This document shows, piece after piece, positions 2,593 to 13,108 of a DNA stretch of 13,108 bases (the first letter of the stretch is position 1; each line of letters opens with the position of its first letter). The notes under the pieces are model-generated. The model was given only the letters and a program-made list of their open reading frames with translations, did no database searches and was not told the origin of the DNA. The DNA is from Acidobacteriota bacterium (GTDB lineage Bacteria > Acidobacteriota > Terriglobia > Terriglobales > Acidobacteriaceae): positions 1 through 13,108 of the forward strand of contig JAJXZK010000452.1 of assembly GCA_021780095.1 (NCBI GenBank), given 5' to 3'. Made by a program: the position numbers and the translations under genes.

Positions 2593-4614
2593 CTAAACAG
2601 GCTTCTGGCTTACGGCTTCAACTTCAGGCGAGACGTTCTGTTTTGTCTTCCGCAAGAGCAATGAGGTGGGTATGAAAACAGAAAAGCAGGTGATCTTTTC
2701 ACCCCGAAAAGTCACACTGCGAAAACGAATCGTGCCCTCGTGCTTTTGAACGATGCCTCTGCTTATCCAAAGGCCCAATCCGGTGCCTTTGGTGGACTTG
2801 GTGCTGAAGAACGGTTCAAAGAGCTTTTCCGCATCTTCGGGATTGATGCCGCCTCCGGTGTCCGATATGGAAACCCGCACCCCGGCAGGTTGCAGATGCA
2901 CGGCGGAAGTCTCTCCCACATGGATACGCAGCCGGCCACCATCCTGCATTGCCTCAATAGCATTGGAGATAAGATTCAGAAAGACCTGCTTGAGTTCTCC
3001 TGGAAAACCCTGTACGACTCCGTCGCTTCTGTATCTTCGATCCACAGCGATGCCGTTCATTTGCAATTGGCGGGATTGGAATTCCAAAACGTCGTCCAAA
3101 AGAGCTGAAAGCGACACCGGGATCGCCTGTGCCGACTCCCGATAAAAGCCGAGCGTTTGCCTGGTAATGTGAGTGACGCGAGCCAATTCCTCTTCGGCCA
3201 TGCGAGCGTAATTCCTGGCTTCTACATCCAACGAAGGATGTTCTCGCAAGAGATAGAAGATGTTGGTGATGGATCCGAGAGGATTATTGATCTCGTGGGC
3301 GACGATCCCGGCCATCCTTCCCATCGCCGCCAATTTTTCCGATCTACGCAAGGCTTCTTCAGCCTGAATCTGCGCGGTGATATCGCGACATATCTCCAAC
3401 ACCGCACCGGAATTTGTTCCATCGCATCGATGATTCTTGCGGCACGCGGTAACGATCTCGCGCCCATCCTTCGTAAACTGGATCAGATTTCCTTCCCACC
3501 GCTTGCCTTGCAGGAGCATCTCTTCCATTTCTTCCAGCGAAGTTGGGAAGGTGGTCCGCAACAACTGGTGCAGATTTTTGCCGATCGCTTCTTCGGAAGT
3601 CCAGCCATACATATCGGTGGCGCCAGAATTCCAAAAGCGAACAATCCCGTCGACGTCGCGCACCATAATCGCTTCCGTAGCAAGTTCCAGGAGATCCGCG
3701 CGTTCCCGCAACGTTTGTTCCATGCGTTTGCGTTCCGTGATGTCGATCAAGGCTCCGACTGCGCCGCGGACATTGCCGGAATCGTCGAACAACGGATTGG
3801 CGCTCGCCAGCGCCTGCGTGACCCTGCCGCTCTTGTGGTGAATCTCCAATTCAACACTGGCCACGGCTTTGCCCGTGACGGCGGCTAACTCGACAGGCAA
3901 TTCGTCGATCGCGAGCCGTCCATCCTGGCGATAGATCTCGACCGCGGGCTTCTCCTCTGGAAACGCGCTCAAAGACAGGTTTGTCTCGGGAGGCAGTTCC
4001 AGCAACTGATACATAGCCGCGTTTCCGGTGATGACGCGGCAGTCGGGGTCATGGGCGACCGAGATGCCGACCGGCAACACCTTCATGATGCTCTCGAGTT
4101 CGGCGATTCTTTGCTGCAATTGGGCATTCAGGCTTCGAATCTGCTCTGCGCTTTCCCTCAGCTCTTCCGTTCGAGCGATGACTCTTTGTTCCAGTTCGCT
4201 ATTTAGCAGCTCCAATTCCCGCGTCTTGCGGTAAAGGTCGGCGAACAGGCTCACCTTGGCCCGTAGCAACTCGGGTACGACAGGGACTGAGATGTAATCC
4301 ATCGCGCCCCGCTGGTACCCCTGGATACGGTCGAGGTCTGTCAGATGAACAGCGGAGATGAAGATGATTGCGATCTTTTCGAAACGAGGATGCTGATGAA
4401 TCATGTCCGCCAGTTCAAACCCGTTGAGTTCGGGCATGCTAACGTCCATGAGGATGATCGCGATTTCGTTCTTGAGAAGGAGATCTAGCGCCTCTTTTGC
4501 CGTGGTGGCCGAGATTAGATTTTCGCCAAGATCGTCCAGTATGGCTCGATAGCTGAGCAGTTTGCCGGGCTGATCGTCGATCATCAGGATGTTCAATTTC
4601 TGGTTTGTAATCAT
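2593..4614 (-). CDS. Receiver-first sensor histidine kinase (REC-PAS-PAS-HisKA-HATPase), 673 aa
   Basis: Cytoplasmic phosphorelay kinase. Domains in order: REC about 7-125 (acidic pair D13/D14, acceptor D57 in LMDVSMP, Ser87 in FISA); a coiled linker about 127-177; a PAS-like region about 175-297 ending in IDITERKR; a PAS domain about 305-417 (FWNSGATDMYGWTSEEAIG) with an ICRDIT PAC end; HisKA with His440 in AHEINNPLGS; HATPase_c with N box NLISNAIEAM (547-556), DTGGG (585-589) and GTGLGL (610-615). All catalytic motifs are intact. There are no membrane segments. In REC the usual K-P switch region reads ISVPVVPE, so the conserved Lys is Val110. It starts 47 bases after the giant kinase on the same strand, so the two are almost surely co-transcribed. 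Its receiver is a plausible phosphoryl acceptor within that relay (inference). The start ATG has a GAAAG-type weak ribosome site. Confidence 0.93.
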   Translation of the reverse strand: MITNQKLNILMIDDQPGKLLSYRAILDDLGENLISATTAKEALDLLLKNEIAIILMDVSMPELNGFELADMIHQHPRFEKIAIIFISAVHLTDLDRIQGYQRGAMDYISVPVVPELLRAKVSLFADLYRKTRELELLNSELEQRVIARTEELRESAEQIRSLNAQLQQRIAELESIMKVLPVGISVAHDPDCRVITGNAAMYQLLELPPETNLSLSAFPEEKPAVEIYRQDGRLAIDELPVELAAVTGKAVASVELEIHHKSGRVTQALASANPLFDDSGNVRGAVGALIDITERKRMEQTLRERADLLELATEAIMVRDVDGIVRFWNSGATDMYGWTSEEAIGKNLHQLLRTTFPTSLEEMEEMLLQGKRWEGNLIQFTKDGREIVTACRKNHRCDGTNSGAVLEICRDITAQIQAEEALRRSEKLAAMGRMAGIVAHEINNPLGSITNIFYLLREHPSLDVEARNYARMAEEELARVTHITRQTLGFYRESAQAIPVSLSALLDDVLEFQSRQLQMNGIAVDRRYRSDGVVQGFPGELKQVFLNLISNAIEAMQDGGRLRIHVGETSAVHLQPAGVRVSISDTGGGINPEDAEKLFEPFFSTKSTKGTGLGLWISRGIVQKHEGTIRFRSVTFRGEKITCFSVFIPTSLLLRKTKQNVSPEVEAVSQKPV

Positions 4615-4661: not shown

Positions 4662-7600
4662 TCACCGGTGAAGCCACATGCGTAACGTTGAGAGCAACTG
4701 TTCAGTATTGACCGGCTTGGCAAGATACTCCGATGCGCCAGCTTCGAGGGTTTTTTCGCGATCTCCCTTCATGGCCTTGGCTGTAAGCGCGACGATCGGC
4801 AGACGACGGAAAGAAGGATTTTGGCGAATCACGCGCATGGTCTCGTAACCATCCATGTCCGGCATCATGATATCCATCAAAACAATCGCAACGTCCGGCG
4901 TCGAGTCCAGTATGGCAATGGCTCGCTTGCCTGTGTCGGCAGTCAGTACAGTCATTCCGCGACGTTCGAGCACGCTGCTAAGAGCAAATATGTTCCGCAC
5001 ATCGTCATCCACGACAAGCACTTTTCTTCCTGCCAGGGCGTCATCGGAACGGTGTAGCCGATCCAGCATATTCTGTTTCTCTTTCGGAAGATTGGCAACC
5101 ACACGATGGAGGAACAGGGCCGTTTCGTCCAGCAGCCTCTCCGGCGATTCGACCCCTTTCACCACCACCCTGCGAGCCAACATGTGCAAGCGAGTATCTT
5201 CCTCCAGAGACAATTCCTTCCCGGTAAACACCACAATCGGCAGATCGTTAGATTGAAGCGTATCGTGCAGACGATCCAGCACGTCGAACCCGGACATATC
5301 CGGTAGGCGAAGGTCGAGCACAACACAATCGAACGATTCTTCGTCAATCGCCTGGAGAGCTTTACTGCCGGAGTCGGCAACGGTAATGTCAATGTCCTCG
5401 CCGGCCAGCAACGCGCTAATACTTAATTGCTCCGCCGGGTTGTCCTCTACGACAAGCAAACGCTTGAGTGGAGTAGCGGAATACTTCTTGATCCGCTGCA
5501 GTGCGCTCTCCAGCTCTTGCGGAGTGACGGGTTTGGTGAGGAAGGCGAATGCGCCGCTCGCCAATCCATGCGCCTTGTCCTCATCCATTGTCAGTATCTG
5601 AACGGGGATGTGGCGGGTCGCGGCGTCCTGCTTCAGGTGATTCAGCACGGTCCAGCCGAGCATGTCGGGAAGAAAAACGTCCAGGGATAGGGCCGCCGGC
5701 TGAAACTCACGGGTCAAGGCAAGAGCGTCCGCGCCACGCGTGGCAAGCAGCACTTTGAACCCTTTATCGCGAGCAAGGTCGAATAAAATCCGGGTGTAGT
5801 GCGGGTCATCCTCGACTATCAGCAGCACTGTATCTCCCGGAAGAATGTTCTCACGATCATCCGGAATCTGCTCCGATGCAAAGTCTGCCAGCACAACGGG
5901 CGACATCTCTTTCTGTATTGAGAAGGTCGCATTTTTTGCTTCGAGAGGATGTGCAGCGACAGCGACGGGGCCGCTATAAACCTCCGGCAGATAAAGAATA
6001 AAGGTACTACCCTCTCCGGGAATGCTGCGCAACTGAATTTCCCCTCCGAGCAGACTCGCCAGTTCACGGCTGATGGCCAATCCAAGCCCGGTCCCGCCGT
6101 ACTTACGGCTGGTTCCAGCATCCGCCTGCTGAAAAGCCTCAAAAATGATTCGCTGCTTTTCCTGCGGAATTCCGATTCCGGTATCGGAGACCTCAAACGC
6201 GATTACGGATGAAACTCTACTTAGAATCGGGTGCTCGCTGGTCCAACCGCCATTTGCCACTGAGACCGCGAGTCGCACGCCGCCCTGGGCGGTGAATTTG
6301 AAGGCATTCGACAGCAGATTTTTCAGCACCTGTTGTAACCGTTTTGAGTCGGTGACAAAGCTTTGGCTGAGCCGAGGATCCGTATGCACGTCGAAGCTGA
6401 GTCGCCGGTTTTCCGCTTCGTGACGGAATGCACGTCCAATCGTATCGAGAAGGTTGGAGAAGGAGATTTCTTCGGCCTGCACGGATACGGTTCCGGATTC
6501 AATCTTCGACAGGTCGAGGATGTCGCTGATGAGGTTCAGCAAGTCCGTACCCGCTCCGTGGATAGTGCGGGCGAATTCGACCTGCTTGGCCGTCAAATTC
6601 TCGTCCGCATTTTCGCTCAACTGCTGACCCAAAACCAAAATGCTGTTCAGCGGCGTACGCAGTTCGTGAGACATATTGGCCAGGAATTCCGATTTGTATT
6701 TCGAGGTGAGGGCGAGCTCTTTCGCCTTGCCCTCAAGCTCACGTCGCGCCTGCTCAATCTCTTGGTTTTTTCGTTCTACTTCGGCGTTCTGTTCGGCAAG
6801 CTGCTGCGCCTTCTGCGCAAGCTGCTCGTTTTTCTGCTGCAGTTCCTTCTGCTGGGTTTGCAGTTCTGTCGCCAGTTGCTGCGATTGCTTCAGCAGGCCT
6901 TCGGTCTGCATGGTGGCTTCAATGCTGTTCAATACAATGCCGATGCTGGCCGTCAATTGTTCAAGGAACGCCAGATGGGAGGCCGTAAAGCTGCTCAATG
7001 AAGCGAGCTCAATTACGGCCTTGACGCGATCTTCAAAAAGGACCGGCAGAATAATGACATTGCGCGGAATGGCATCGAACAACCCGGAACGGATGGTGAC
7101 ATCGCTTTCCGGCAAATCGGAAATCAATATGCGGCGCTTCTCCGCCGCGCATTGCCCTAAGAGTCCCTCGCCGATGTTGACTCGCCGCAAGTGGCCGTCA
7201 GGTCCATCGCCGGCATAGGAGGAGAGCAGTACCAACTCCTGCTCCGCTTCCGTATCCATCTGATAGATGATGGCTTGCTGCGCATTTACGAGCGGAGCCA
7301 ATTCCGAAAGCAATGTCTTGCCGACCGTAGTCAGGTCGCGCTGCCCTTGCAGCATTCCGGTGAATCGAGCCAGATTCGTCTTAAGCCAATCCTGTTCCGT
7401 GTTGCGTTCGGTGGTGAGGCGGAGGTTGTTGATCATCGTATTGATGTTGTCTTTCAACTCCGCGACTTCACCCTTCGCCTCCACTTGAATGGAGCGGGTG
7501 AGGTCTCCCTTGGTCACCGCGGTAGCGACTTCGGCGATGGCGCGGACCTGGTTGGTCAGGTTATCTGCCAGAAGATTGACGTTGCCGGTCAGATCTTTCC

Positions 7601-10427
7601 ATGTTCCCGCCGCACCGGGCACGTTGGCCTGCCCTCCTAAACGCCCTTCGACGCCAACCTCTCGCGCAACGGTCGTGACCTGGTCGGCAAAGGTGGCCAG
7701 GGTATCGGTCATGTTGTTGATGGTTTCCGCCAACGCCGCCACTTCGCCTTTCGCGTTCACAGTCAACTTTTGCGTCAATGCGCCGTTGGCGACGGCGGTG
7801 ACGACCTTAACGATGCCGCGCACCTGCTCTGTCAGGTTGGCGGCCATCACGTTGACGTTGTCGGTGAGATCCTTCCATGTGCCGGCAACGCCCGAGACCT
7901 GCGCCTGCCCGCCCAATTTGCCGTCCGTGCCGACCTCGCGAGCGACGCGAGTGACCTCGGCGGCGAAGGCGTTCAGTTGATCCACCATGGTATTGATGGT
8001 GTTCTTTAGTTCAAGGATTTCTCCCTTCACATCGACGGTGATTTTGCGGGACAAATCGCCGCGAGCCACGGCAGTTGTAACCTCGGCAATATTGCGAACC
8101 TGGCCGGTCAGGTTGCCGGCCATCGAGTTCACGGAATCCGTGAGGTCTTTCCACGTTCCAGCGACCCCCGGAACACTGGCCTGTCCGCCCAGTTGGCCCT
8201 CCGATCCAACCTCGCGGGCTACACGAGTCACTTCGCCGGCAAACGCATTCAGCTGGTCCACCATGGTATTGATGGTTTCCTTGAGCAGCAGAATTTCGCC
8301 GCTCACGTTCACCGTGATTTTTTTCGAGAGATTGCCGTTCGCAATTGCGGTGGCGACTTCCGCAATGTTGCGCACCTGGCCGGTTAAGTTACTGGCCATG
8401 GAGTTGACGGAATCCGTAAGGTCTTTCCATGTGCCGCCCACGCCCGGAACTTGTGCCTGACCACCCAGCTTGCCGTCGGTGCCAACCTCTCTGGCTACGC
8501 GCGTCACCTCCGACGCGAAGGAGCGAAGCTGCTCCACCATCGTGTTGATGGTGTCTTTCAGCTCCAGAATTTCGCCTTTGACGTCCACGGTGATCTTGCG
8601 CGACAGGTCGCCGCGCGCCACGGCGGTTGCGACTTCGGCAATGTTGCGAACCTGACCAGTGAGATTGCTGGCCATGAAATTCACGTTGTCGGTCAGGTCC
8701 TTCCACGTTCCGGCAACGCCCGGTACCTGAGCCTGGCCGCCCAGTTTGCCGTCTGTTCCTACTTCGCGGGCCACACGCGTGACCTCACCGGCGAATCCGT
8801 TGAGTTGATCCACCATGGTGTTGATGGTGTTCTTCAGTTCCAGAATTTCGCCCTTGACATCCACGGTGATCTTGCGCGACAGGTCGCCGCGCGCCACGGC
8901 AGTCGTCACTTCGGCAATATTGCGGACCTGACCCGTCAAATTTCCGGCCATCGAGTTCACCGAATCCGTCAGGTCTTTCCAGGTGCCGGCGACACCGGGT
9001 ACATTCGCCTGACCGCCCAATCTGCCTTCCGATCCGACCTCGCGCGCCACACGGGTGACCTCGCCGGCGAATCGGTTCAGTTGGTCCACCATGGTGTTGA
9101 GGGTTTCCTTCAATTGCAGAATTTCTCCGCGGACATCGACTGTAATCTTGCGCGACAGGTCGCCGCTTGCGATGGCCGTCGCGACCTCGGCGATATTGCG
9201 GACCTGACCCGTCAAGTTGCTGGCCATAAAATTCACATTGTCGGTGAGGTCTTTCCAGGTGCCGCCCACGCCGGGTACCTGCGCCTGGCCACCCAGCTTA
9301 CCTTCGGTTCCTACCTCTTTTGCGACTCGAGTTACCTCACCAGCGAAGGCATTCAACTGGTCCACCATGGTGTTGATGGTGTCCTTCAGTTCCAGAATTT
9401 CTCCCTTCACATCGACGGTGATCTTGCGCGAAAGATCACCGCGGGCCACCGCAGTCGTGACTTCCGCAATATTGCGGACCTGAGCCGTCAAATTGCCTGC
9501 CATTGCGTTCACGGAGTCGGTGAGATCCTTCCAGGTACCGGCGACACCCAAAACCACCGCCTGTCCGCCCAGCTTGCCATCCGTGCCCACCTCCCGCGCC
9601 ACTCGGGTTACCTCTGAGGCGAACGATCGCAACTGATCGACCATGGTGTTGATGGCTTCTTTCAGTTGCAGAATTTCTCCTCGAACATCGACGGTGATCT
9701 TACGGGAAAGATCGCCGCTGGCCACAGCGGTCGCGACTTCGGCGATATTACGGACCTGGGCCGTCAAGTTGCCGGCCATTGAATTGACTGAATCGGTCAA
9801 ATCCTTCCATGTCCCAGCCACTCCGGGCACTTGAGCCTGGCCGCCCAGCTTGCCGTCTGTACCGACTTCGCGGGCGACGCGAGTCACCTCCGAGGTAAAC
9901 ACTCCAAGCTGCTGGATCATCGTATTCACGATTTTGGCGGAGCGCAGAAACTCGCCTTCCAGCGGCCGGCCGTCAACGTCCATGCGTACCGTCTGAGTGA
10001 GGTTGCCTTCGGCCACGGCAGCAATCGCGCGGGTCACTTCCGTAGTCGGCCGCAACAGATCCTCGACCAGCGTGTTGACCGAAACCTCCATTTCTCCCCA
10101 CGCGCCTCTGGACTCGTGAAACTTCGCCCGCTCGCGAGTCCGCCCCTCTTTGCCGACCACTTGACCGACGCGTTTCAGCTCCTTCGCGATTCCTTGATTT
10201 GTCTTCGCGATTTCATTGAAATCATCCGCTATTTTTCCGGCCAGTCCTGTCCATGACCCCGGCAGGCGAACAGAGAAGTCGCCGTCGCGCATGGCTTGCA
10301 TTCGTTCCAATATCAGAACGAATTCCGCAGAGCCGGGTTCCGTAAGCATTCCGATGCGACCATTGCCGCTCGGATCGGGTGGGGGAGCCTCTCCCTTTTC
10401 TGCTACCGCGGCTTTGCTTTTTCTCAT
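4662..10427 (-). CDS. Giant poly-HAMP hybrid histidine kinase with GAF and three receiver domains, 1921 aa
   Basis: Soluble hybrid kinase of the poly-HAMP type; fungal group III (Nik1/Os-1) osmosensing kinases are the best-known relatives by architecture. Domains: a Pro-rich N-terminus (1-30); about 21 HAMP-type modules (about 36-1002), of which most follow a 92-residue period pairing a canonical HAMP (RNIAEV...GEILxLKxxINTM) with a divergent one ([10 protein letters not shown]...GTWKDL); GAF about 1030-1170; a Gln/Glu-rich coiled coil 1175-1245; HisKA with His1254 in [10 protein letters not shown]; HATPase_c with NLLSNAFKF (1370-1378), DTGIG (1415-1419) and GGTGLGL (1444-1450); REC1 about 1532-1648 (D1583, K1632), REC2 about 1654-1775 (D1705), REC3 about 1801-1920 (D1852, T1882, K1904). 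No transmembrane segment is seen, so sensing is intracellular, through HAMP mechanics, GAF, or both. The ATG has GGAGAG at 10432-10437. First gene of the operon with the 673-aa kinase. Confidence 0.95.
7422..9890 (-). repeat. Tandem 276-bp coding repeat (92-aa double-HAMP unit)
   Basis: Inside the giant kinase, residues 180-1002 consist of a 92-residue unit repeated in exact register: GTWKDL occurs at residues 205, 297, 389, 481, 573, 665, 757, 849 and 941, with no insertion or deletion between copies. Each unit holds one canonical and one divergent HAMP module. Units beginning at residues 225 to 868 are nearly identical in protein; the next two (869 onward) and the N-terminal ones are more divergent. 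At DNA level the copies differ mainly at third positions, which argues for selection on the protein and against a very recent expansion. Confidence 0.95.
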
Positions 10428-11012: not shown

Positions 11013-11179
11013 TCAGTTCCAGGCCAGAAGCCATGACTCCGCACAGGTTTCAGCCGCATCTTTTTCTCTTGACGCTGCAGGAGCCTGACCTGATCCGCTG
11101 CCTGCAATAGCCATTGCGAACACTAAGCCAATGCCGACCCACACCAGCAGTCCATGCAGCGTGGTTCCGGAGGCATCAT
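11013..11179 (-). pseudogene. Probable small membrane-protein gene broken by one frameshift
   Basis: The cytochrome gene ends GGGGAAGAAATGATG, where an ATG overlaps its TGA stop and has a good ribosome site. This copies the coupling pattern between the barrel and cytochrome genes. The frame from this ATG gives only 18 residues (MMPPEPRCMDCWCGSALA). The -1 frame, open through the same DNA to 11013, encodes a clear membrane segment HGLLVWVGIGLVFAMAIAG followed by a polar tail ending LLAWN, but has no ATG of its own. A single base missing between about 11155 and 11175 would join them into a protein of about 55 residues with one membrane helix. It could be a true mutation, a sequencing error, or a separate gene starting at the GTG at 11144. 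Function unknown. Confidence 0.4.
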
Positions 11180-11577
11180 TTCTTCCCCTCCACGGATGAC
11201 GATGGTCCGAGGCTGCGCAGATACGCGATAATTTGCCAGCGCTCCTGCTCCGGCAGACCGCTCCAGCGCGGCATGCCGCGGTAAACGTCTCCATTCTTCA
11301 ACAGCCACGCCAGCTCACCGTCCGTCTCATTTCGTACCTCTTCAGTTCGGAGACTGGGGCGGGAGAATTTTCCGGCCGCGTCGTTGCCATGACATTGCGC
11401 GCAGTTGTTGTGGAACAGAATCGCGCCCGCTGCGACGGCGTCTGGTTTTCCCGCGTACGGGTTAACGCGGCTGCGTTCAGCCTGCGGGACCTTCTTCAGC
11501 CATTGATTCGTGGCCTTCGCAAAACATACCGCAGAGATTGTCAGCAGGATCGCCAGAATCCAATTTCTACCCTTCAT
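11176..11577 (-). CDS. Monohaem c-type cytochrome, 133 aa
   Basis: Periplasmic electron-transfer protein. It has a signal peptide (MKGRNWILAILLTISAVCFA, then probable cleavage near AKA at 20-22; Cys18 follows Val, so this is not a normal lipobox). The haem-binding motif CAQCH is at 59-63 and a probable axial Met at 102 in GDVYRGMPRW, the usual arrangement of small class I cytochromes (cytochrome CBB3-type/c550-like fold). QERWQIIAYLRSLG (111-124) is the typical C-terminal helix. The ATG overlaps the stop of the barrel gene by 4 bases (ATGA) and has GGAGGAAGAA directly before it, so translation is coupled. Its redox partner is not visible; coupling to an outer-membrane-type protein suggests a role at the cell envelope, but electron donor and acceptor are unknown. 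Confidence 0.92.
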   Translation of the reverse strand: MKGRNWILAILLTISAVCFAKATNQWLKKVPQAERSRVNPYAGKPDAVAAGAILFHNNCAQCHGNDAAGKFSRPSLRTEEVRNETDGELAWLLKNGDVYRGMPRWSGLPEQERWQIIAYLRSLGPSSSVEGKK

Positions 11578-12488
11578 TTCTTCCTCCGAAACCTGTCGCG
11601 AAATTGCTGGATTTCATACGACGTACCGAAGCGCCACAGCACGCCGACAGAGTTGTCGTTCAGGCCAAGCTCGGGAGAAAACTTGAAGGTCCATCCTAGC
11701 GGCGTGTTGAGCGCAATGGTGGGGGCGGCGTAATGTTGGGTGCGATTGAGGCCGAAGGTGTAGCGTGTTCCTAGCCCTCCAAACAGTTCCGCACCCGCGG
11801 CGATATTCTGTCCGCAAAGCACGCACAGCTTCGGACTTCCCGCCAAGGCCAGAGGTCGCGACGCTGCAAGCGCATAGCCAAATTCCCAGGGATTGTTTCC
11901 GTTCACGGCTTTTTCGGCGATCATGTTCTCCGAAAAATTCCATCCCCTGGCATAGCTGGAAAGAATCAGCTTGCCTTCGACCGTACGCGCAACCTCCTTG
12001 CGCGAGATCGCGTTAGGTACCTGCAGACTGGCAGCGGTGTCATTCCCGGTAATTTCAAGAAAGCTCTTGTCCGCACCATTGGTGTCTTCATATTCGACGT
12101 AGAGAACTGGATTGATCCAGTATTCACGGGGCAGCGGGCGAAAACGATTTTCAAAACGGAATCCGGTAAAGATCGCGGAGTCGTTTTGCGTTGCCTGCCC
12201 TTGCAGGTAGGCTTCCGCCGTCCACCACGCAGTCACGCCGTATTCGAACTCAATGGTCGGCGCGAAGAATTTGTTCGCATTCTTCGGCGCAGCCGCAATA
12301 TTCTGGTTCTCGAGTTCCAGATTACCCGGCTCTTCCAGGACGGAAGAATAAGTGACGAAATATGGTGGCTCCTGCTGCGCTTCGGCGCGTTGCACCCAGC
12401 CGAACATCAGAAATGCACAAATTACTTCGAGCCATGCGATCCGGTAACAAACACGCCTCCACCATCCGCTCAAGTCTTCCAACGTCAC
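11574..12488 (-). CDS. Exported beta-barrel-type protein of unknown function, 304 aa
   Basis: I choose the GTG at 12488 because GGAGG sits 6 bases before it; the longer frame would begin at a TTG (12536) or an ATG (12518) without a comparable site. The N-terminus then has a basic WWRRVCYR segment, a hydrophobic core (LEVICAFLMFGW) and an AEA cleavage site near residue 37. The mature protein alternates aromatic/polar strands (APTIEFEYGVTAWWTAEAYL, YWINPVLYVEYED, WEFGYALAASRPL, GWTFKFSPELGLN, VGVLWRFGTSYEI), the pattern of an outer-membrane beta-barrel, though it ends in a basic RRKK tail rather than a terminal Phe. A CVLC pair (Cys222, Cys225) is unusual in an outer-membrane barrel and could form a disulfide or bind metal. 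Its stop overlaps the cytochrome start. It looks like a barrel family met beside cytochromes c in Acidobacteriota (recollection, not checked). Confidence 0.75.
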   Translation of the reverse strand: MTLEDLSGWWRRVCYRIAWLEVICAFLMFGWVQRAEAQQEPPYFVTYSSVLEEPGNLELENQNIAAAPKNANKFFAPTIEFEYGVTAWWTAEAYLQGQATQNDSAIFTGFRFENRFRPLPREYWINPVLYVEYEDTNGADKSFLEITGNDTAASLQVPNAISRKEVARTVEGKLILSSYARGWNFSENMIAEKAVNGNNPWEFGYALAASRPLALAGSPKLCVLCGQNIAAGAELFGGLGTRYTFGLNRTQHYAAPTIALNTPLGWTFKFSPELGLNDNSVGVLWRFGTSYEIQQFRDRFRRKK

Positions 12489-12494
12489 GTGATA

Positions 12495-12499
12495 CCTCC
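12495..12499 (-). promoter_or_regulatory. Strong ribosome binding site that decides the GTG start
   Basis: GGAGG on the - strand, 6 bases before the GTG at 12488. It falls inside the longer in-frame reading that starts at 12536, and its spacing to the GTG is ideal. Confidence 0.65.
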
Positions 12500-12564
12500 A
12501 AAAGATCTTCGAATGCATCGGTTCCGGCAATATCAACGCAGCCCCGTGGTTTTGCTAACTGGCT

Positions 12565-12772: not shown

Positions 12773-13108
12773 TCATCCTGCCAACGCCTCTTTCTTAGCA
12801 GCACACTGTCCGCATAATCCTCCCACCTCTAAACGAATCACCTGAATGGAAAAATGATTTTTCTCGGCGATCTCGCGCTTCAGCTTCTCAAAGGTGGGAG
12901 TTGTAAATTCCTCGATCTTTCCGCATTCGAAACAGGCCAGATGCAGATGGTCTTTTTGCGTCTTCACTTCGTAATAATGCTTTTCACCGTTCAGGTGCAT
13001 CAGGTCGAGTTCATCAATCATGCCGCGGCGCTTCAGCAGTTCAAGCGTTCTATAGACGGTGGCGCGATCGATGTTGGCATCCCGCTTGCGCGCAAGCTCC
13101 AAGAGGCT
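12773..13108 (-). CDS. Fur-family metal-dependent regulator, C-terminal part (partial, cut by right window edge)
   Basis: The frame is open to the window edge, so the N-terminus is missing; the apparent TTG start at 13102 is internal. Seen: the end of the winged helix, ANIDRATVYRTLELLKRRG, with the recognition-helix signature ATVYRTL; the dimerisation and metal part KHYYEVKTQKDHLHLACFEC, carrying the family's H-x-H-x-x-C-x-x-C pattern; and a second pair CGQC near the C-terminus. Four Cys in two CxxC pairs match the structural zinc site of Fur, PerR and Zur proteins. Which metal or peroxide it senses cannot be told from the fragment. It lies 284 bases upstream of the barrel/cytochrome genes on the same strand, so it may share or control their transcription (inference). 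Confidence 0.9.
   Translation of the reverse strand, partial: SLLELARKRDANIDRATVYRTLELLKRRGMIDELDLMHLNGEKHYYEVKTQKDHLHLACFECGKIEEFTTPTFEKLKREIAEKNHFSIQVIRLEVGGLCGQCAAKKEALAG

Follow-up and report, generated by a model that had tools for sequence, protein, structure and literature searches.

The locus described here raises the question of whether a soluble histidine kinase with some 21 consecutive HAMP modules is exceptional, and how an array of this type could govern the output of the kinase to which it is joined. The protein is encoded in a 13,108-nucleotide stretch of DNA from an Acidobacteriota bacterium that was analysed in full and is referred to as the window.

Domain organization of the poly-HAMP kinase

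The 1921-residue protein is specified by a single minus-strand open reading frame with an ATG start (Table 1). A Pfam scan matched the HAMP and HAMP_2 models with E values of 2.4e-96 and 1.9e-83, respectively, and the array therefore is not a chance finding. On the C-terminal side of the array the scan placed GAF_2, HisKA, HATPase_c and three receiver domains in which the expected motifs are present. The maximum mean hydropathy over 19 residues was 1.56 for the whole kinase and 1.12 within residues 1–1010, values that make a membrane segment unlikely. Between the GAF and HisKA domains the AlphaFold model contains helices 229–290 and 300–352, which correspond to residues 1149–1210 and 1220–1272 and part of which have pLDDT <50. 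Matches of Pfam GatB_Yqey (29.6 bits with a cut-off of 27) and DUF1759 (below the cut-off) to the HAMP repeats at 7398–10328 were judged to be spurious. Collapse of the assembly at the array also is unlikely as the longest exact DNA repeat within it is 41 bp and the window contains no N. A promoter and terminator scan upstream of the kinase gene returned five terminator-like sites compared to 0.9 expected; four of these overlap as a single plus-strand site where the coding sequence begins. The tRNA and Rfam scans found nothing.

Elsewhere in the window, a plus-strand region near the edge (7–1080) resembles large DUF4011 anti-phage proteins over their C-terminal part, with a nuclease domain of the MTES_1575 type; the region matches positions 1461–1682 of the Hhe model and 1494–1711 of the ProA model, both far below the cut-off. 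On the minus strand, a small cytochrome c (11176–11577) directly follows, with a 4-base overlap, a 320-residue frame (11574–12536) that has no Pfam or NCBIfam match. A Fur-family regulator is located at 12773–13102 on the same strand, its N-terminus probably being cut by the window edge.

Table 1. Features of the poly-HAMP kinase gene and its neighbor in the window.
Feature	Position	Strand	Basis
Poly-HAMP hybrid histidine kinase, 1921 residues	4662..10427	-	Open frame; Pfam domains
Leading HAMP (residues 34–84)	10176..10328	-	Model helices; mean pairwise identity 0.40 in 39 sequences; covered by PDB 9trk by sequence
N-terminal unit, position-specific (residues 88–184), followed by the sole 97-residue spacing	9876..10166	-	Unit profile; unit comparison
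Seven core di-HAMP units, interchangeable and each 92 residues long (residues 185–828)	7944..9875	-	GTW register; unit comparison
Two C-terminal di-HAMP units, position-specific (residues 829–1012)	7392..7943	-	Unit comparison
GAF domain (residues 1030–1166)	6930..7340	-	GAF_2, E=7.9e-18; model
Long helix between GAF and HisKA, probable coiled coil (residues 1167–1241)	6705..6929	-	AlphaFold model
HisKA with MSHELR (start at residue 1252)	6492..6695	-	Pfam; motif
HATPase_c with DTGIGI and GTGLGL motifs	5982..6350	-	Pfam; motif
Receiver 1, with acidic pair, Asp, Thr and Lys	5493..5828	-	Pfam; motif
Receiver 2, with acidic pair, Asp, Thr and Lys	5118..5462	-	Pfam; motif
Receiver 3, with acidic residues, Asp, Thr and Lys	4680..5024	-	Pfam; motif
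Partner gene, receiver-PAS-PAS-HisKA-HATPase_c, 673 residues; 47 bp downstream of the poly-HAMP kinase	2593..4614	-	Open frame; Pfam

Twenty-one HAMP modules in a 92-residue register

The array spans residues 34–1010 and comprises a leading HAMP followed by ten di-HAMP units, that is, 2 × 10 + 1 = 21 modules. Nine of the units possess a GTW anchor that recurs exactly 92 residues apart from residue 205 to residue 941, and a profile built from these nine units detected one extra unit 97 residues upstream of the first. Two AlphaFold models, of the array start (mean pLDDT 60.6) and of the array end onward (mean pLDDT 69.2), show a rhythm of helices and connectors that fits this count at both ends of the array. 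Helices occupy residues 34–47, 61–93, 108–139 and 158–189 in the N-terminal model and residues 940–972 and 987–1026 in the C-terminal model; pLDDT falls below 50 in the core of the first model and in the initial part of the second, and a dimer is beyond the reach of such monomer predictions. The best structural matches of the model of the first HAMPs were with the poly-HAMP region of Aer2, with a probability of 1.00 but E values of 0.04–0.09.

The sequence-only reading of this DNA had described about 21 HAMP modules without a membrane segment, followed by a GAF domain, a kinase and three receivers, and the Pfam matches, GTW register, unit profile and hydropathy bear out this description with a count of 21. 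Its portrayal of a soluble array of alternating canonical and divergent HAMPs comparable with Nik1-type kinases and Aer2 agrees with the 92-residue HAMP pairs of CaNik1p and with the structural matches to Aer2. The reading had also proposed that a conserved register would lend it support, and the register was found to be strongly conserved. The unit spacings in 191 arrays, which are partly redundant as some protein matches may equal genome loci, comprised 191 of 97 residues, then 1960 of 92, nine of 91 and one of 57, the last across a masked stretch. The spacings in the genome sample described below were 92 residues in 460 instances and 91 in one. Inspection of three of the 91-residue spacings revealed that one residue was lost directly before the GTW anchor, a position that is taken to lie in the connector loop of a divergent HAMP.

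Distribution of the family and length of the array

The 1921-residue kinase belongs to a widespread bacterial family that is built like the fungal Nik1 kinases. The N-terminal region of the array was detected in 17 of 199 genomes in the phylum of Candidatus Sulfotelmatobacter (L001; limit of 1e-15, with all 17 best matches also <1e-30), in 15/146 in the phylum of Komarekiella (L031), in 10/140 in that of the Myxococcales locus (L074), and in 20/299 in that of Bradyrhizobium (L005). Matches at E 1e-100 were present in 241 plasmid records, 119 of which are from Rhizobium; in 147 of the 241, a single place spans 80% or more of the query. The relatives with the highest identity (81–83%) derive from records titled Acidobacteria, Acidobacteriaceae or Sulfotelmatobacter.

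A protein search retrieved at least 7999 relatives, all scored candidates being beyond E 1e-30. The best 120 of these are all longer than the kinase under study (2076–2657 residues), in a protein ranking that favors long arrays. The loci of the genome sample were picked via the N-terminal region of the array alone and hence without selection for length. Fifty-eight of 64 matched places were fetched, most of the six omitted lying close to a contig end or within a short open frame, and 48 of the 58 are complete arrays; L174, with 10 units, was lost only because its HisKA pattern was missed. Ten units, as found here, is one of the two commonest lengths in this set (14 arrays), alongside 12 units (15 arrays); there are also seven arrays with 13 units, three with 14, two with four and one each with 3, 5, 6, 7, 8, 9, and 11, although the 3–5-unit counts around the Myxococcales locus could conceal units too diverged for the profile. 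Thus, 14 of 48 arrays equal the present one in length, 26 exceed it and eight are shorter. When four seed genomes that had been taken from the 80-locus set were removed, the corresponding values were 14, 22, and 8 of 44. An exceptional length thereby is ruled out. The longest array observed has 18 units, equivalent to 37 HAMPs if the leading HAMP is present, and occurs in two of the 111 regular arrays among the best 120 protein matches. The total range is 3 to 18 units.

The 80 loci yielded 89 frames; the complete counts exclude frames interrupted by a stop or frameshift (L071, L073), those truncated at contig ends and those that start inside the array, and the lone 4-unit row among the 191 arrays derives from a fragment of L073. 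A near clade was defined by ≥70% identity in the N-terminal region and a minimum of eight units. Twelve units are present in 64 of its arrays, 14 in 13 and 11 in one, so that 77 of 78 near relatives possess 12 or 14 units, although these arrays are kin and not independent events. The proposal in the sequence-only reading that the array is at the long end therefore stands in comparison with fungal proteins, but not among bacterial relatives. The same reading had allowed that the array might prove to be common and always of this length in homologues: it is common, but its length is variable.

Eleven relatives were aligned. The arrays of eight of them, each of 12 units, are set off from the present array by a single clean step of 184 residues, which equals two units. 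Among the others, L042 differs by 92 residues, the 14-unit P0054 by 368, and the 18-unit P0046 at three places. An impression from the best 120 relatives that length alters only in steps of 184 residues was discarded as 7, 8, 9, 11, and 13 units also occur. Array length changes in whole 92-residue pairs.

Fixed end units and a highly conserved core

Unit positions were compared among four divergent arrays of 12 units. In all 12 ordered comparisons the N-terminal unit matched its own position, as did both of the last two units, whereas core units in the same arrays gave mixed positions, with between 0 and 6 of 12 matches at their own (ties assigned to the first). The N-terminal and last two units are position-specific and the core units interchangeable. 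Among 181 core units from 22 divergent arrays, 67 of the 92 positions are conserved at 90% or above and 37 at 98% or above, and 24 polar or glycine positions are conserved at 95% or above. The mean pairwise identity of the first core unit in 39 sequences was 0.83, compared to 0.40 for the leading HAMP which is the least conserved stretch measured in the kinase. Across 32 sequences the last unit gave 0.80, the HisKA region 0.78, the HATPase domain 0.66 and the GAF domain 0.54. HAMPs in general are far more variable than these core units.

Core units have a mean identity of 0.83 between divergent arrays and of 0.88 within one array. Where core units of the 1921-residue kinase encode the same amino acid, identity at the third codon position was 0.486 compared to 0.382 expected from codon usage, and the observed value exceeded expectation in 22 of 22 arrays, by ~5–45% of the way to identity. 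Recent homogenization by gene conversion was mostly rejected as third positions are nearer to codon-usage chance than to identity, but some shared recent history among the core units remains. The likeness of the core seems to be held mainly by selection on the protein, since third positions are only modestly above the codon-usage expectation, with some contribution from shared history. Units two apart were more alike than neighbors in 150 of 178 arrays, although these arrays are redundant. Among the 22 divergent arrays the best lag was 2 in 11, 1 in seven, 3 in three, and 4 in one, and it is 3 in the 1921-residue kinase. A universal super-repeat of four HAMPs was rejected as lag 2 was best in only half of these divergent arrays (11/22). 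The preference for lag 2 looks like the footprint of which block was duplicated.

A recurring partner kinase

The gene directly downstream of the poly-HAMP kinase encodes a second kinase (Table 1) whose receiver retains the Asp motif, but has Val in place of the usual Lys (around residue 110). In 92 partner-like frames with a readable motif, located anywhere in the loci, this position is Val in 47 and Lys in 42. Of the 77 loci in the 80-locus set that leave at least 900 nt of room after the kinase, 45 have a relative of the partner, aligned from its receiver, as the next gene (threshold of 100 bits). The same applies to 24 of the 47 complete arrays with >900 nt of room in the genome sample (threshold of E 1e-5). 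Correspondingly, such a relative is absent as the next gene in 32 and 23 cases, respectively. The pairing was most frequent around the Bradyrhizobium locus (15/19), followed by those of Candidatus Sulfotelmatobacter (5/11) and Myxococcales (2/7). As the partner is the next gene in only 2/10 cases around the cyanobacterium Komarekiella, it is not obligatory there.

On plasmid p42f of Rhizobium etli CFN 42, a 557-residue partner relative (274 bits) is located 10 bp downstream of the kinase and has receivers at both ends, HisKA and HATPase_c, and no PAS domain in Pfam. Thus, the receiver and kinase of the partner recur, but the PAS domains do not. The pair in R. etli is followed by the trehalose and glycogen genes treZ and malQ (L220:9645-13631), and a TreZ-like frame also is situated 2.3–2.4 kb downstream of the kinase in two Rhizobium leguminosarum loci (L039 and L056).

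Proposed signaling by the array and alternative readings

The protein probably is a cytosolic, presumably dimeric, bacterial group III (Nik1-like) poly-HAMP hybrid kinase that acts with a receiver-PAS-PAS-kinase partner and whose output is controlled by the array as a rod. As judged from sequence, it joins ten di-HAMP units and one HAMP in a 92-residue register to GAF, kinase and three receiver domains, with no membrane segment and with a recurring gene pairing. The array would form a continuous parallel rod whose modules alternate between two packing states, an alternation suggested by Aer2 chimeras in which neighboring HAMPs are described as giving opposite outputs (PMC3570549). The rod would hold the kinase in one output state; an inhibitory array fits the report that removal of all HAMPs from fungal CaNik1p causes constitutive pathway activation (PMC3848655). 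The trigger for a shift of state might act on the array or its variable leading end, on the GAF domain or on the partner kinase, and the change would be relayed by the last two units, which are position-specific, and by the long helix. Transfer of phosphate could follow, through the three receivers and to or from the receiver of the partner, with the partner serving as a co-sensor or phosphate partner. Gain or loss of whole di-HAMP pairs would preserve the sign of the signal so that length could drift in pairs. Alternatively, paired length change might simply mark the sites at which recombination is possible, since the two module types are too different to recombine.

The possibility, raised in the sequence-only reading, that osmotic, ionic or mechanical cues are sensed directly by the soluble array, with ionic strength or crowding altering the packing of the rod and thereby kinase output, is considered unlikely, and no feature of the sequence decides in its favor. 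Pfam detected no separate sensor domain before the array, as would suit such a sensor, but inputs could also enter through the GAF domain and through the PAS domains of the partner. Trehalose is an osmoprotectant, and the treZ gene after the pair in R. etli is a weak local hint in favor of osmosensing. However, a TreZ-like frame was found in only 2 of 80 loci (both R. leguminosarum, in flanks of up to 10 kb) and is absent from the window, and the trehalose link therefore is not general. Fungal group III arrays have been suggested to participate in osmosensing (PMC3848655) and the Ask kinases of Myxococcus xanthus in the glycerol response (PMC7643160), but AskC, and not AskA or AskB, is listed as binding ambruticin in vitro (PMC7643160, Table 1). 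As described in the same source, work on bacterial relatives points to a partner kinase and to small-molecule and glycerol responses.

A reading of the array as a spacer or scaffold, a stiff rod with a docking surface that places the kinase and its partners while the GAF domain is the only sensor, is rated as rather improbable. The GAF domain is situated between array and kinase, which leaves the array off the GAF-to-kinase path, and the 24 highly conserved polar or glycine core positions are as expected of a binding surface. Nevertheless, a precise ruler would not tolerate a length range of 3–18 units, and the effect of HAMP deletion on the output of CaNik1p (PMC3848655) argues against a purely structural role. 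It is similarly doubtful that the array, instead of being a passive rod, presents the same conserved interaction surface at many sites, whether to a common cytosolic ligand, to a partner or for lateral assembly, with copy number tuning gain in sign-preserving pairs, in this clade mostly two pairs at once. This proposal arises because the core unit is nearly invariant across phyla (0.83) though third codon positions are closer to chance than to identity. A reactive-cysteine sensor, as proposed for the fungal group III kinase Drk1 and methylglyoxal (PMC6433957), is very improbable, and cysteine sensing in the array was set aside, as the 1921-residue kinase has only two Cys residues, at 1093 (GAF) and 1701 (receiver 2), with none in the array, and any Cys occurs in just 24 of 585 core units in this kinase and the loci counted.

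Relation to known poly-HAMP proteins

The kinase is ordinary both in kind and in length. Long bacterial poly-HAMP hybrid kinases and a change in the tract length of AskB are already in print (PMC7643160, PMC4603909); searches of open-access papers showed no survey across the whole family of how many units occur, of the end units and of conservation in the core, although papers such as Dunin-Horkawicz and Lupas (2010) may include part of such a survey. What is gained is a picture of the family in which the end units are fixed, the core is exchangeable and highly conserved, length is quantized and a partner kinase recurs. Proteins that otherwise are ~80–86% identical to the 1921-residue kinase occur naturally with 10, 12 and 14 units and offer a direct test of whether HAMP number and parity set the output.

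Two structures, PDB 9trk and 9trj ('histidine kinase,Gcn4p'), match residues 33–314 and 33–222 by sequence with E values of 9.6e-115 and 6.8e-66, and cover about six and four HAMPs, respectively, by the module boundaries drawn here. The best structural matches in a fold library of entries up to 8 April 2026, which does not contain these two, are Aer2 (PDB 3lnr, 4i3m, 4i44), which shares soluble, concatenated, divergent HAMPs with the present array. Aer2 is described as having a PAS-haem domain and a chemoreceptor output (PMC3570549). Membership of the Aer2 family was rejected as the NCBIfam Vibrio Aer2 model scored 245 bits compared to a cut-off of 1200 and PAS and chemoreceptor domains are absent from the Pfam matches.

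The fungal group III kinase CaNik1p is described as containing four HAMP pairs of 92 residues each and one single HAMP (PMC3848655). The same ~92-residue HAMP-pair tract plus a single HAMP, the HisKA, HATPase_c and receiver domains after the array, and the lack of a membrane segment that is ascribed to group III kinases (PMC7643160) recur here. In contrast to CaNik1p, there are 21 HAMPs instead of nine, and a GAF domain and three receivers are present. As ten units and one HAMP are found in place of the five to six repeats of fungal group III proteins, the kinase is filed as a bacterial long-array form like Amb07, AskA and AskB of myxobacteria, which are reported as group III hybrid kinases with a poly-HAMP region longer than that of NIK1 (PMC7643160).

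Unrelated Pfam domains also land on the HAMP repeats of relatives: SpoIIID (residues 175–201) and HTH_6 (137–162) in the R. etli protein (L220:3410-9634) are misfires of this type. PF12116 and PF01418 are listed for many protein relatives. Comparable partial HTH matches are cited for AskA and AskB along with gel-shift data (PMC7643160). DNA binding inferred from such matches alone therefore is doubtful.

The closest parallel by published description is the Ask system, in which AskC is encoded immediately downstream of askB in M. xanthus (PMC7643160), just as the window has a receiver-bearing kinase gene 47 bp directly downstream of a long poly-HAMP hybrid kinase gene. Physical interactions among the Ask proteins are reported, including a two-hybrid contact between receiver 3 of AskA and the receiver of AskC, and roles in development and in ambruticin and glycerol responses are ascribed to the three kinases (PMC7643160). 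The poly-HAMP tract of MXAN_6735 (AskB) is reported to be expanded or contracted between two Myxococcus species (PMC4603909). The two systems thus share a long bacterial poly-HAMP hybrid kinase, as in AskA, AskB and Amb07, and a further receiver-bearing kinase encoded directly after it, but differ in host and in downstream pathway.
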